Origin: a bacterium
Lineage (GTDB): Bacteria > Myxococcota > UBA727 > JAUIJE01
Assembly: GCA_030431455.1 (NCBI GenBank)
Contig: JAUIJE010000006.1
Coordinates: forward strand, 372,001-436,000
Direction of reading: 5' to 3'
Length of the DNA stretch: 64,000 nt
Shown: piece after piece, positions 21,486-25,813 of the stretch
How the letters are laid out: every line of letters starts with the position of its first letter
How positions within the stretch are numbered: position 1 is the stretch's first letter
The notes under the pieces: generated by a model
The model's database searches: none
Told to the model about the DNA's origin: nothing
The model's input: only the letters and a program-made list of their open reading frames with translations
Made by a program: the position numbers and the translations under genes

Positions 21486-21504
21486 GCCGGGGCCGCCCAC
21501 GAAC

Positions 21505-21536
21505 AAAAAACGCCTCCCCCCGGGAGGCGTTTTTTT
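21505..21536. terminator. Bidirectional intrinsic terminator
   Basis: Perfect 8-bp stem CGCCTCCC/GGGAGGCG (21511-21518, 21522-21529) flanked by A6 on the left and T7 on the right, so it works for the BamB-like gene on the plus strand and for the five-gene operon ending at 21577 on the minus strand. Confidence 0.9.
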
Positions 21537-21576
21537 GGGGGATGTGCGGTGATCGCGTCAGCGCGACCGGGATGGG

Positions 21577-21780
21577 TCAGGGGGTGGGCGGGTCGTCCAC
21601 CTCGAACCGGACGCGGTTGTGCGACCCGTCGCACCGCGGCGCGGTGGCCGAGGCCCCGCAGCGACAAAGCAAGATCCGATCGCCGAACCGCTCGAGCACG
21701 TCCCCGTCGTAGCCCTCGACGTCGACGTCGCCTTCGATCACCAACGGGCCGCCTTTGCGGCACCGGATGCGAACCGTCAC
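21577..21780 (-). CDS. CDGSH-type [2Fe-2S] protein
   Basis: Very small protein (67 residues) consisting of one CDGSH iron-sulfur domain: CRCGASATAPRCDGSH has the exact 3Cys-1His ligand spacing (Cys-x-Cys-x8-Cys-x3-His) that holds a redox-active and pH-labile [2Fe-2S] cluster. The remainder is short beta strands (VRIRCRKGGPLVIEGDVDV). The GTG start at 21780 overlaps the stop of the truncated-globin gene, so the two are translationally coupled. Related proteins respond to redox and nitric-oxide stress and can transfer clusters. It is the last gene of a five-gene operon and is followed by a terminator. Confidence 0.88.
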   Translation of the reverse strand: MTVRIRCRKGGPLVIEGDVDVEGYDGDVLERFGDRILLCRCGASATAPRCDGSHNRVRFEVDDPPTP

Positions 21781-22406
21781 GGGGCCTCCCCGGCACCGGC
21801 CTGGCGGGCGGCCGCCTCCACCGCCGGGGCGCAGGTCGTGCAATAGGATTTGCCGGTGCGCACGTGGTACCGCACCAGCTCGCCCACCTCCACCGCGTGG
21901 CCGCAGCCATCGCACATCGAGCCGAACTCGAGCACCACTTCATCAAAGCCCTCCAGCGGCAACGACCGGCCGCGGAGTTTTTTGGGGATGGGCTCGCGCT
22001 TGACGATCTGTTTGCGAAACACCTCGTCGACCTTGCGCCATTGGGCCCAGTGCGCCTCAGACAGTCCGTGCCGCAACGCCGCGGCTTCGAGCAGAGACTC
22101 GCGCAGGTCGAACATCTCGTCGGTGATGACCATCCAGTGGTGCGCGTTTCGCGGGCGGTCCCCGAAGTACACCTTCACCCCGGTGAACAGCTCCATGAGA
22201 AAGTTGTACTGCTTGGACACGATGCGCTCTTTGGTGACCCCCTCGAAAAAAGGGCCAAGCCGCGGATGGGCCAACACCTGGGTGTAGAAGTCCTCCAGGA
22301 TCGTGCGCAGGAGCTTGCCGTCGTCGAGCGCTCTCCACAGTTCGGGGTTGGCGGCGAGGTCGCCGGCGCGCCTTCGGTGGGTGTGGTAACCGGGGATGTC
22401 ATCCAT
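21777..22406 (-). CDS. Truncated-hemoglobin-like protein with C-terminal zinc ribbon
   Basis: 209 residues from ATG 22406. Residues of about 20-130 match the truncated globin fold: ILEDFYTQVLAHPRLGPFF (B helix and CD turn), KQYNFLMELFTGVKVYFGD (E helix and EF loop), RPRNAHHWMVITDEMFD carrying the candidate proximal haem histidine, then the G and H helices. Unlike ordinary truncated globins it continues with a polar linker and CDGCG-x18-CTTC (in SMCDGCGHAVEVGE and SYCTTCAP), a four-Cys zinc-ribbon-like or rubredoxin-like knuckle. Truncated globins bind O2, NO or CO. The start overlaps the end of the PATAN gene by 8 bp and the end overlaps the CDGSH gene. Confidence 0.8.
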   Translation of the reverse strand: MDDIPGYHTHRRRAGDLAANPELWRALDDGKLLRTILEDFYTQVLAHPRLGPFFEGVTKERIVSKQYNFLMELFTGVKVYFGDRPRNAHHWMVITDEMFDLRESLLEAAALRHGLSEAHWAQWRKVDEVFRKQIVKREPIPKKLRGRSLPLEGFDEVVLEFGSMCDGCGHAVEVGELVRYHVRTGKSYCTTCAPAVEAAARQAGAGEAP

Positions 22407-23283
22407 GCAGTCCGTCCAGCTTCTCCAGCTCGGCTTGGGACATGGAGATGACCAAGCCCAGGTTGCTGTAGTCCTTGCACACCGCCACGAACACCTGGCC
22501 GCGGTGTTTGTGGGCGCGCTGAATGATGGTGCAGCTGTCGGCCCCGATGGAGACCAAACGGTCCATGCTGCTCGTCGAGGCTTCGACCCCAGGGCCGTAT
22601 TTGGCCTCGAGCCGGGAGATGGCCCCGGAGCGCAGGTAGTCCGAGACCGCTTCGACCAAGCTGGTGCGCTCCTCGATGTTGAGGGCGTCACCCGGGCTCA
22701 CCCCGAGGAGCCGGGGGCCGTTGAGATCGATCACCGCGAGGGCCGCGCAGTGGGGGATGTGTTCGCGGGCTTGGCTGATCTCCGCCTCGGTGAACGCGGG
22801 GGTGTTGTCGGTGGCGACGAGCAGGCTGCCGTCGAGTTCGTGGGGCATCGCGTCGACGAGCTCGTCGAGGCCGAATACGTATTTGTTGGAGTAGGACCGG
22901 CTCAACGGCACGAACAGCGCCCGCAGCGGTCCCTCCATCCGGGCGATGCCCGCGATGTGATGGGCATTGTGTTTGAGCAACGAGCGCCGCAGCCCGTCCT
23001 CGTCGACGAGACCCCAGCTCACCAGGGTCTCGCCGAAGGCTTTGCGCGTGTTTTGGCACTCCTTGAGCACCGCCCCGAGGTCTTCCCGCCGCAGGCCCGT
23101 CTCGTCGCAGAGCACGTCGCCCAGCCGCCGCTTCACCGCGTCGCACGAGATCCACGCGATCTTCTTGTCGTACAAGTAGATGCGGGCGCTGGCGGCCAAG
23201 CCGCGCACCACGATTTCGCCGCTGCCGTGGGTGGCCGCGGCGTCGTCGAGTGCATCCAGGACCTCGGCGGGAATGGGGGTCAT
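22399..23283 (-). CDS. PATAN (DUF4388)-like protein with C-terminal roadblock-like region
   Basis: 294 residues, soluble. The N-terminal part (about 10-140) has the layout of DUF4388/PATAN domains of bacterial signalling proteins: a GSGEIVVRG strand, a gene-typical YLYDKKIAWISC turn, GDVLCDETGLRREDLGAVLKECQ and GETLVSWGLVDEDGLRRSLLKHN helices. The C-terminal part (about 165-290) resembles a roadblock/LC7 fold (EISQAREHIPHCAALAVIDLNGPRLLGV, then TIIQRAHKHRGQVFVAVCKDYSNLGLVISMSQAELEKL). Roadblock proteins act as activators or platforms for small Ras-like GTPases such as MglA. It begins 2 bp after the stop of the roadblock gene and overlaps the globin gene, so all three are made together. Confidence 0.7.
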   Translation of the reverse strand: MTPIPAEVLDALDDAAATHGSGEIVVRGLAASARIYLYDKKIAWISCDAVKRRLGDVLCDETGLRREDLGAVLKECQNTRKAFGETLVSWGLVDEDGLRRSLLKHNAHHIAGIARMEGPLRALFVPLSRSYSNKYVFGLDELVDAMPHELDGSLLVATDNTPAFTEAEISQAREHIPHCAALAVIDLNGPRLLGVSPGDALNIEERTSLVEAVSDYLRSGAISRLEAKYGPGVEASTSSMDRLVSIGADSCTIIQRAHKHRGQVFVAVCKDYSNLGLVISMSQAELEKLDGLHG

Positions 23284-23285
23284 GA

Positions 23286-23690
23286 CTACAGCGCGGCCTC
23301 GACTTTGGGGGCGGCCATGCGGCTTTTGGTCAGGACCATGCCGACGTTGGCGCTGCTGCGGACGACGTAGACGGTGGCGTGGTCATTGTAGGTCTTGCCG
23401 CGGATGAAGACGTGGATGAGGTTGTTGGAGAACGCGATCATCTCGTTGAAGTAGTGAACGCCGTCTTCCCCTTGGCCCCGGGCCTTGCGGAACATTTTTT
23501 CGATGGTGGTCACGCTCTGCCCTTGGAACATCTCCGCGGTGGCGGCGGCGACGAGGTCGATGACCTCCCGGGGGTGCGAGTCGACGGTGTTGACCCCGAG
23601 CAACATGCCGGTGGCCATGTCGACGTAGCCGATGGCCACACACTCGGGAACGCTGGCTTGCGCCTCTTTCAATGCACTGTCCAAAGACAT
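23286..23690 (-). CDS. Roadblock/LC7-like protein
   Basis: 134 residues with a roadblock/LC7-type pattern: ALKEAQASVPECVAIGYVDMATGMLLGVNTVDS (helix, strand and the G-rich turn), EVIDLVAAATAEMFQG (central helix), HVFIRGKTYNDHATVYVVRSSANVGMVLTKSRM (antiparallel strands). Such domains dimerise and regulate or scaffold Ras-superfamily GTPases (for example MglB for MglA in polarity control). No GTPase gene is in the window, so its partner would be encoded elsewhere or be the PATAN/roadblock protein next door. The start at 23690 has AGGAGAAG upstream, overlapping the TAG stop region of the ABC-phosphatase gene. Confidence 0.7.
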   Translation of the reverse strand: MSLDSALKEAQASVPECVAIGYVDMATGMLLGVNTVDSHPREVIDLVAAATAEMFQGQSVTTIEKMFRKARGQGEDGVHYFNEMIAFSNNLIHVFIRGKTYNDHATVYVVRSSANVGMVLTKSRMAAPKVEAAL

Positions 23691-23699
23691 CTTCTTCTC

Positions 23700-25031
23700 C
23701 TAGGCGGCGGTGCCGCGGTTTGCGTGATGGTCGGCGCGCGCGGCCACATGCCGCGCGAACCGGGTCAGGAACTCTTCTTGTTCGGCCGACTGTACCCACC
23801 GGGGGTTGGTGGTGCGGGCCGCTTCCAATGCTTCTGCACCGCTCGCCCCCCGGCGCACGAGCTGGGCCGCGAGCATTGTGCCGGTGCGGCCCATGCCCGC
23901 GCGGCAGTGGAGGGCGACGACGTGGCCGGCGGCGAGCAAGCCCTCGATCTCATCGGTGAAGGCCAGCGCTTCGTCGAGCCCGGGCGCGTGCATGTCGTCG
24001 ATGGGGAAGAAGCGGGACGCGATGTCGACCTTGTCGAGCTCACCCGCGGGCACCAGCCGGCGCTCCTCGAGGGTCACGAGCACGGTGATGCCCGCGCGCT
24101 TGAGCAGGTTGAGGTCGATGTCGACGTCGTCGACCACCCCGGGGCGCGGGCAGCCCGCGAGCTCGCCCGGGATCAGCCACCGGAAGCCACGCGGCCCCCC
24201 CGCGCTCGCCACCGCGGCCCGGGCCGCGGCCGACAGGGGCGGGGGCTCGGGCGCGTCGTCGGCGAGGTCTTCGCGGACCGCGCCGGGGGTGGGCAGGCGG
24301 CTGCCCCCGGTCTTGACGAACTCGGCCGCGACCTCGCTGGCCGGGGCCAAGAAGAACGCGGGGGTGGGCTGGGTGCACTGCGAGCGGCCGCCCGCGAGCA
24401 GCGTGGTGTGGCCGCCGAGCCGTTGGGCCCGGTCTTGGCGGTGGGTCACGAGCAGGACCGCCCGGGTGCAGGCCGCGTCGGCGATGAGGTCGAGCAGGGC
24501 GTCGGCGTCGGCGTCATCGAGCCCGGCGGTGGGCTCATCGAGCAGCAGGAGGGGGGCGTCGCTTTGCAGGGCCGCGGCCAGGGCCACCCGGCGTTGGTCG
24601 CCGCGCCCGAGCAGGTGGCCCTCGTCGTCGAGACGGTCCACGAGGTCGTCGAGCCCCCAGAACGCGAGGTGTTTTTTGAAGTGCGCGCGCTGCTCGGCCC
24701 GCGACAGGGCCCCCCGGCGCGGCAAGGACTCGGCCAGCGAGCGGGACACGGTGCGCGAGAGCAGCTGGAGGTTTTGCTCGACCAAGGGCGGGCGGCGCTC
24801 CTCGGGCACATCGTGCAGCGGCCGGTCGCAGAACCGGGCGGTACCCCACACCTGCAGCCCCGGGGCGCCCTCGTTGCGACCGGCCAGGGTCCGGAGCAGG
24901 GTGGACTTGCCCCCGCCAGCGGGGCCGACGATCAGGTGCAGCCCGGTCTGGTCGAGGTCGAGGGAGAAATCGGCGATCACGACCCGCGCGCCGTACGCCA
25001 CCCCAAATCCCGACAGCTGCAAAATCGACAT
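23700..25031 (-). CDS. ABC-type ATPase fused to a dual-specificity protein phosphatase
   Basis: 443 residues, soluble. Residues 1-225 are an ABC ATPase: Walker A GPAGGGKST (36-44), Q-loop EQN (85-87), a degenerate signature LGRGDQRR (141-148) in place of LSGGQ, Walker B LLLLDEP (161-167) and H-loop His197. A Pro/Ala linker joins a cysteine phosphatase domain (about 285-430): PGELAGCPRPG, an Asp pair in FFPIDDMHAPG (possible general acid) and the P-loop HCRAGMGRTG (375-384, nucleophile Cys376, Arg382). No permease is near. The combination of an ABC motor and a DSP phosphatase is not one I recognise. It is the first gene of the operon with roadblock, PATAN, globin and CDGSH genes, 9 bp upstream of the roadblock start. 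Confidence 0.85.
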   Translation of the reverse strand: MSILQLSGFGVAYGARVVIADFSLDLDQTGLHLIVGPAGGGKSTLLRTLAGRNEGAPGLQVWGTARFCDRPLHDVPEERRPPLVEQNLQLLSRTVSRSLAESLPRRGALSRAEQRAHFKKHLAFWGLDDLVDRLDDEGHLLGRGDQRRVALAAALQSDAPLLLLDEPTAGLDDADADALLDLIADAACTRAVLLVTHRQDRAQRLGGHTTLLAGGRSQCTQPTPAFFLAPASEVAAEFVKTGGSRLPTPGAVREDLADDAPEPPPLSAAARAAVASAGGPRGFRWLIPGELAGCPRPGVVDDVDIDLNLLKRAGITVLVTLEERRLVPAGELDKVDIASRFFPIDDMHAPGLDEALAFTDEIEGLLAAGHVVALHCRAGMGRTGTMLAAQLVRRGASGAEALEAARTTNPRWVQSAEQEEFLTRFARHVAARADHHANRGTAA

Positions 25032-25192: not shown

Positions 25193-25813
25193 CTAGGCGG
25201 GGGCGGCCGGGATCGAGGCGAGGAACTCGGCGCGCCGGGCCGGCTCGTCGGCAAACGATCCCGCGAACGCTTGGGTGCGCACGCGCTCGTCGCCGCGTCG
25301 GTTTTCGCCGAGCAGCAAACACAGCTGTTCGGCGTCGACGACACAGGCCGCGCCGCGGGCTTGTCCGTGGGTGACCAGGGCGTTGACGATGTCGCGGGTG
25401 ATCCACTCTTGGTAGGTCAACCGGTGGCTGATGGCGTCGACCATGCGCGCGATCCGGCCGAAGCCATGCAGGCGGCCGCCGGGGTGGTAGGCGACGTGCG
25501 CGACACCCCGAAACGGGACCAGGTGGTGGGGACACACCCCGTGCACGGCGATGCCCCGGATGATGACCACGTCCTCGCGGTCGTCGACGAAGCCGTCGCC
25601 GAGGATGGTCGAGAGATCTTGGCCGTAGCCTTCGAGCAGCCGGGTCTGCCACAGCTCGCGCACCCGCCGGGCGGTCTTGTCGGTGTGGGCGGTGCCGGGG
25701 TCGATGCCGCAGGCGGCGAGCAGCTCGGTCACCGCCCGCTCGAAGCGGGCGGGGTCAAAGGGGCGTCCGGGCTCGATGCCGACAGGGCGGGCGGCGGGAT
25801 CGGGGCTTTCCAT
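25193..25813 (-). CDS. folE: GTP cyclohydrolase I
   Basis: First step of tetrahydrofolate (and pterin) synthesis: GTP to dihydroneopterin triphosphate. It has 206 residues. Zinc ligands Cys94 and His97 in VHGVCPHHLVPF and Cys165 in DAEQLCL; substrate and fold elements TARRVRELWQTRLLEGYG, GRLHGFGRIARMVDAISHRLTYQEWIT and the GDERVRTQAFAG end. The ATG at 25813 gives a short family-typical N-terminus; an upstream extension of the frame runs antisense to the LON gene and was rejected. It is divergent from the LON-domain gene across about 100 bp and unrelated in frame to the phosphatase operon 161 bp downstream. No other fol gene in the window. Confidence 0.93.
   Translation of the reverse strand: MESPDPAARPVGIEPGRPFDPARFERAVTELLAACGIDPGTAHTDKTARRVRELWQTRLLEGYGQDLSTILGDGFVDDREDVVIIRGIAVHGVCPHHLVPFRGVAHVAYHPGGRLHGFGRIARMVDAISHRLTYQEWITRDIVNALVTHGQARGAACVVDAEQLCLLLGENRRGDERVRTQAFAGSFADEPARRAEFLASIPAAPA

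Follow-up and report, generated by a model that had tools for sequence, protein, structure and literature searches.

What common task might be served by five tightly packed genes that encode an ABC ATPase fused to a phosphatase, two roadblock-type proteins, a truncated globin and a CDGSH iron-sulfur protein? The genes in question occupy positions 21577 to 25031 of a 64,000-nucleotide stretch of DNA (termed here the window; G+C about 69%), which corresponds to G000:C2:372001-436000 of the 7.7 Mb genome of a member of the Myxococcota. A first-pass annotation of the window took these genes for a complete pathway leading from gas or redox input, through a roadblock relay, to a phosphatase output.

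Comparison with relatives leads to a different emphasis. The core consists of the ABC-phosphatase and the small roadblock protein encoded next to it (termed here g2); around it, haem, iron-sulfur, PATAN, VOC and GTPase genes serve as interchangeable accessories. The five genes are thus not the fixed set that had been envisaged: the globin, the CDGSH protein and the PATAN protein are facultative. The function proposed here for the module, with a probability of roughly 45%, is that of a redox- or gas-controlled phosphatase switch on a roadblock platform, the input, target and direct contacts of which are postulated.

The ABC-phosphatase as constant neighbor of g2

Gene 1, the first in the order of transcription (23700..25031, minus strand), encodes a core component of 443 residues, in which an ABC ATPase domain (about residues 1-215; Pfam ABC_tran, 3e-17) is followed by a phosphatase domain of the PTP-SAK/DSP type (about residues 280-430; PTP-SAK/Tc-R-P, 1e-19). 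Both its nucleotide-binding and its phosphatase motifs are intact. The Walker A, Walker B and H-loop elements of ABC ATPases are present, and an alignment of 42 ABC-phosphatases shows Walker A, the Gln of the Q-loop, the DE of Walker B and the His of the H-loop to be invariant or nearly so. The HCx5R motif and general-acid Asp of DSP/PTP phosphatases are likewise present, and in the same alignment H375-C376-x5-R382 and D346 (the general-acid Asp) are invariant or nearly so, where only the Asp constitutes an independent check, the aligned relatives having been preselected on the pattern HCxxGxxR. The LSGGQ signature is absent: the window protein has LGRGDQ, and this position is highly variable across the 42 sequences. 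In Rhodobacteraceae the phosphatase is sometimes a separate gene (c51, L089).

Inasmuch as the ABC domain resembles the nucleotide-binding domains of importers and keeps the Walker A and B motifs and the Q- and H-loops, it might serve a hitherto unrecognised transporter as nucleotide-binding subunit, with transport under the control of the phosphatase and roadblock parts. The signature motif is degenerate, however, and no permease gene was found to recur beside the core across lineages in the loci compared; a transporter is considered very improbable and, for the same two reasons, the earlier description of this protein as a nucleotide-powered motor is doubtful.

The second gene (23286..23690, minus strand) encodes g2, a stand-alone core protein of 134 residues that adjoins the ABC-phosphatase in most relatives. 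A scan of genome contigs with a g2 alignment retained 79 loci out of 183 relatives, the hosts being Myxococcota, Delftia/Comamonas/Acidovorax, Stenotrophomonas, Rhodobacteraceae, Planctomycetota, Vicinamibacteria and Saezia. The core is conserved, with its two genes adjacent, across phyla, between which g2 is 60-69% identical. In a profile-based census of 83 non-redundant loci, the neighbors found within 3 kb of g2 were a phosphatase (70 loci), an ABC domain (61), a globin (21), a reductase (15), a PATAN protein (13), a protein termed here X350 (11), an MglA-type GTPase (9), a VOC protein (9), a roadblock protein (8) and a CDGSH protein (4).

Each of the globin, CDGSH and PATAN genes is lacking in many relatives, as would be expected if unrelated genes had been packed into one operon by chance. 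Against this stand the linkage of the families at the level of contigs and independent whole-genome samples from two phyla, in which co-occurrence has P values of 1e-6 to 4e-10; chance packing is accordingly extremely improbable. Among 195 Myxococcota genomes searched across the phylum, 12, from scattered families, were g2-positive, 9 of these at E <1e-50. The linker-phosphatase part of gene 1 was found at E <1e-50 in 7 genomes, all among the 9 with a close g2 (the remaining two have weaker, partial phosphatase matches, one of them at a contig end adjoining g2), and the globin was found in 5 of the 195, again all among these 9. With the window's own genome excluded, the hypergeometric P is 4e-10 for the full ABC-phosphatase with g2 and 1.2e-6 for the globin with g2, counts that are not fully independent, three of the g2-carrying genomes being of one genus. 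Within a sample of 296 Rhodobacteraceae genomes, 7 have the globin, 8 have a close g2 and 6 have both, in each case on one contig and within 8 kb (P 7e-9 with the seed genome excluded, some ascertainment bias remaining from Rhodobacteraceae rows of the globin profile that were found via g2). The exceptions are one globin genome (G357) without g2 and two g2 genomes without the globin. The first-pass annotation had staked its proposal on the co-occurrence of these families in related genomes, and they do co-occur in distant ones, both in the Myxococcota and Rhodobacteraceae samples and among the 83 loci. Because the presence of the globin on the ABC-phosphatase tree needs 8 changes, its association with the core has been gained or lost repeatedly.

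The module is horizontally dispersed, and the window cluster is one local version of it. Nearly identical ABC-phosphatase and g2 genes occur in two Comamonadaceae, Paenacidovorax caeni (L097) and Comamonas suwonensis (L102), where genes for a protoglobin-GGDEF-EAL sensor and for a PAS-MCP receptor precede them and transposase genes come directly after g2; this core was likely transferred recently on a mobile element. A phage contig (IMGVR_UViG_3300005330_000015) carries a Mu-type portal gene (L113:3251-4888) and an orphan g2 (L113:4926-5399, plus strand) that is 63% identical to that of the window; the 10 kb examined yielded no ABC-phosphatase. Anti-phage defence, which was considered on account of this orphan g2 and of dynamins in Rhodobacterales, was set aside: PADLOC gave only generic ABC/AAA ATPase matches, to the ABC-phosphatase, and no specific model match across the operon. 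Within the order to which the window's host belongs, the other genomes compared (G002-G011) measure only 0.3-2.8 Mb, a striking spread of sizes beside the 7.7 Mb of the host.

Roadblock proteins and the place of a GTPase

Sequence profiles give little hint of what g2 is: it has no match of note in Pfam, NCBIfam or PHROGs, and none of 58 family members matches Robl_LC7 (PF03259) at E up to 1. An AlphaFold (AF2) model from 58 sequences, with a predicted local distance difference test score of 91, has the alpha-beta-beta-alpha-beta-beta-beta-alpha order of the roadblock fold. Foldseek matches this model to a Streptomyces Roadblock/LC7 domain (3kye; E 3e-7), and its best match is Myxococcus xanthus MglB (6hjm; VIA Z 15.7, 117 residues, root-mean-square deviation 2.1). 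As modeled, the g2 family is a divergent family with the roadblock fold.

The third gene (22399..23283, minus strand) encodes g3, a protein of 294 residues whose N-terminal domain is PATAN/DUF4388-like and whose C-terminal domain is a roadblock domain resembling g2. In BLAST searches residues about 10-145 match PATAN proteins (DUF4388 is found in g3 relatives) and residues 166-291 match the g2 family, with E down to about 4e-9; an AF2 model, of lower confidence in its second half, yields Foldseek matches to MglB/Ragulator. The prediction of two roadblock proteins is thus upheld, for g2 by its modeled fold and for the C-terminal half of g3 by its resemblance to g2. An order-level search revealed no g3 relative outside the window's own genome, and g3 is not usable as an anchor because a g3-only profile scan of genome contigs found nothing. 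X350, a protein of about 350 residues without a Pfam match, recurs near PATAN/ABC-phosphatase genes in Myxococcota (L021, L022, L025, L034, L042-L044, L048); a partial match of 145 residues lies near a g2 paralogue of the window's own genome, at G000:C3.

Roadblock proteins are partners of Ras-like GTPases and underlie MglA-dependent bacterial polarity as well as eukaryotic Ragulator/Rag signalling. No Ras-like GTPase is encoded in the window cluster, which therefore differs from MglA/MglB-type modules, in which the GTPase is co-encoded. The first-pass annotation had suggested looking for an MglA-type gene near the module in relatives, and small GTPases do lie near g2 in 18 of the 83 loci: MglA-family GTPases with a PGQ motif in 10 and PF03029-type GTPases in 8 more. 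In all, PATAN proteins and three kinds of GTPase are recurrently linked to the module. The window's own genome has four MglA-type matches outside the cluster; one of them, an MglA-family GTPase within a longer protein (L125; G000:C16:577001-596000), is accompanied by a response regulator, a PATAN protein and two more small genes of roadblock-like type.

From this perspective, the module might be a modified polarity or motility switch of the MglA/MglB type, whose roadblock proteins act as GTPase-activating protein or scaffold for a GTPase encoded elsewhere and whose ABC-phosphatase and globin serve only for tuning. The MglB-like folds of g2 and g3, the GTPases near the module and in the window's own genome, one of them in the PATAN/roadblock/response-regulator cluster just mentioned, and the known occurrence of PATAN proteins near MglA/MglB (PMC4316618) all accord with such a variant. 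The constant partner of g2 is nevertheless the ABC-phosphatase and not a GTPase, and at the thresholds applied neither an MglA-type nor a PF03029-type match was obtained in Saezia or in one planctomycete, both of which carry the core; a polarity switch is on balance unlikely. The opposite extreme, that g2 works without any Ras-like GTPase, is weakened by the PF03029-type GTPase genes that occur elsewhere in Stenotrophomonas and Delftia genomes. A GTPase partner acting in trans is possible. A tentative and rather doubtful proposition is that of a signal-transduction class in which the role of molecular switch has passed from the GTPase to an ABC ATPase: roadblock proteins would be its regulatory platform, it would control a covalently attached phosphatase, and a haem globin and an iron-sulfur protein would provide the gas or redox input.

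Dynamin-family genes neighbor g2 in Rhodobacterales. On two Ruegeria plasmids (L119, L120) a diverged g2 homologue, 41-44% identical, lies among four dynamin-family genes, which are followed by a Ser/Thr kinase gene and an FHA-domain gene and, in L119, also by a PP2C phosphatase gene.

Globin, electron supply and a possible input

The fourth gene (21777..22406, minus strand) encodes a Group I-like truncated globin with a C-terminal CxxC...CxxC zinc ribbon (209 residues; Pfam Bac_globin, 7e-7), whose best PDB matches are mycobacterial HbN/GlbN. It has the proximal His F8 and distal Tyr B10 of Group I truncated globins, His89 and Tyr41 aligning with those of HbN. Tyr41 (B10), Gln66 (E11) and His89 (F8) are invariant in 10 of 10 aligned sequences, some of them reductase-fused, as are all four Cys of the zinc ribbon. 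The globin is probably haem-binding, and this frequent companion of the core could sense or destroy O2 or nitric oxide (NO). A flavin reductase, either fused to it or encoded in linkage with it, accompanies the globin in about 18 loci: the globin and zinc ribbon form the C-terminal part of FAD-NAD reductase fusions elsewhere (L103, L112, L042, L071, L130), of which that at L130:9942-11477 is full-length, with an N-terminal 2Fe-2S domain and then FAD, NAD, globin and zinc ribbon. No description of this architecture was found. Because the globin is fused to reductase modules in other genomes, electron supply may matter for it.

The last gene (21577..21780, minus strand; 67 residues) encodes the CDGSH iron-sulfur protein (Pfam zf-CDGSH, 5e-14), in which the motif C-x-C-x2-(S/T)-x3-P-x-C-D-G-(S/A/T)-H takes the form CRCGASATAPRCDGSH. 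In the window and in L022 and L025 this gene, instead of a reductase, lies directly 3' of the globin gene, and all three share a 4-bp overlap (in the window, of the CDGSH GTG start with the globin stop). Beside the module in L020-L022, L025-L027 and L076, though not in the window cluster, is a glyoxalase/VOC domain fused to a DUF2621-like domain, the gene for which sometimes overlaps the globin or CDGSH genes.

Such arrangements raise the question of whether the operon serves NO/O2 detoxification or redox repair, the globin being a reductase-driven NO dioxygenase with CDGSH or a fused reductase as electron donor and the ABC-phosphatase and roadblock genes being merely regulatory. The fusion to FAD-NAD modules (in L130 to 2Fe-2S-FAD-NAD), the conservation of Tyr B10, Gln E11 and His F8, and FNR-like donors known for truncated globins (PMC3820574) all fit this explanation. 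Most core loci, however, have no globin, the conserved unit is the core, and neither the zinc ribbon nor the roadblock proteins have an obvious role in detoxification, which renders it improbable as an account of the whole module.

The phosphatase switch favored here might work as follows. Roadblock dimers, of g2 and of the g3 roadblock domain, would serve as a platform for the ABC domain to bind to and, in some genomes, for a Ras-like GTPase as well. Through this platform the ABC domain would be modulated in its nucleotide state, which would in turn switch the activity of the attached phosphatase towards a protein target. Coupling of the switch to O2, NO or redox conditions would come from the globin, which a reductase or, in the window, possibly the CDGSH protein would keep reduced; such haem and redox proteins would set the input only in those versions that carry them. 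Counted in favor of this reading is L102, where the protoglobin-GGDEF-EAL protein is a gas sensor ahead of the core. Several points weigh against it. ATP turnover by the ABC domain appears uncertain because its signature motif is degenerate; the 83 census loci are the closest relatives of the window g2, and the neighbor profiles come from the same loci; and gas or redox input is not universal, since many core pairs (in Stenotrophomonas, Delftia and Comamonas) have no globin nearby. To call the window cluster a complete pathway is too strong, given that it includes no GTPase, that the target of its phosphatase is only presumed and that its globin, instead of being a sensor, may act as an NO dioxygenase coupled to a reductase.

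The remaining first-pass claims concern the layout, where the annotation proves exact: the five genes are separated in order of transcription by gaps of 9 and 2 bp (gene 1 to g2 to g3) and then by overlaps of 8 and 4 bp (g3 to globin to CDGSH), forming one operon-like unit, and all five family assignments hold, with the corrections given above for g2 and g3. Following the CDGSH gene on its 3' side is a strong stem-loop with a U-run, resembling an intrinsic terminator (about 21504..21537, minus strand; -28.5 kcal/mol for 21490-21545, z -2.4, with 4 of 200 shuffles equally stable). A consensus search, uninformative for the host organism, found no sigma-70-like promoter, and the GCH1 gene located 161 bp upstream of the cluster (25193-25813) has no recurrent counterpart next to the module in related genomes and is not counted as part of it.

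Relation to known systems

A widespread bacterial branch of roadblock proteins having an ABC ATPase-phosphatase as constant partner would broaden the regulatory scope of the fold. If the proposed switch is real, O2/NO or redox control would gain a phosphatase pathway that is linked to haem, and the reductase-globin-zinc ribbon fusion would be given a function. The core is present in culturable hosts (Delftia acidovorans, Comamonas testosteroni, Stenotrophomonas and Myxococcus) and is thus directly testable.

Within the open-access literature, where absence is no proof, no description was found of the ABC-phosphatase/roadblock core or of its link to the globin, nor of a roadblock protein with DUF4388 or dynamin, nor of a CDGSH protein with a truncated haemoglobin, and the first-pass statement that no described system has such a gene content stands to that extent. 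Already known are roadblock-GTPase modules, conservons and PATAN-roadblock neighborhoods (PMC4316618) and reductase-linked truncated globins (PMC3820574), with each of which the module shares certain features.

Like the MglA/MglB/MglC system of M. xanthus (PMC2907295, PMC7949163), it has small stand-alone roadblock proteins and, in some relatives, adjacent PGQ-motif MglA-family GTPases; its constant partner is instead an ABC ATPase-phosphatase, haem and iron-sulfur proteins are attached, and the window cluster is without a GTPase. The actinobacterial conservon, which comprises the histidine kinase CvnA, the roadblock protein CvnB, CvnC and the GTPase CvnD (PMC4316618), is likewise a compact operon with a roadblock protein, a nucleotide-binding switch and a signalling enzyme, and small GTPases occur in some module relatives; the four-gene content differs, however, in that the module core has an ABC-phosphatase fusion in place of a histidine kinase and CvnC, with globin and CDGSH accessories. 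The PATAN-roadblock gene neighborhoods of Makarova 2006, as cited in PMC4316618, also place PATAN beside roadblock proteins, whereas here PATAN is facultative, is fused to a roadblock domain in the window and is accompanied by the ABC-phosphatase. Finally, FNR-linked truncated globins and flavohaemoglobin NO dioxygenases (PMC3820574) share Tyr B10, His F8 and, in module relatives, a fused or linked reductase; unlike them, the module globin domain is C-terminal to the reductase and has both a zinc ribbon and a tie to a signalling core.

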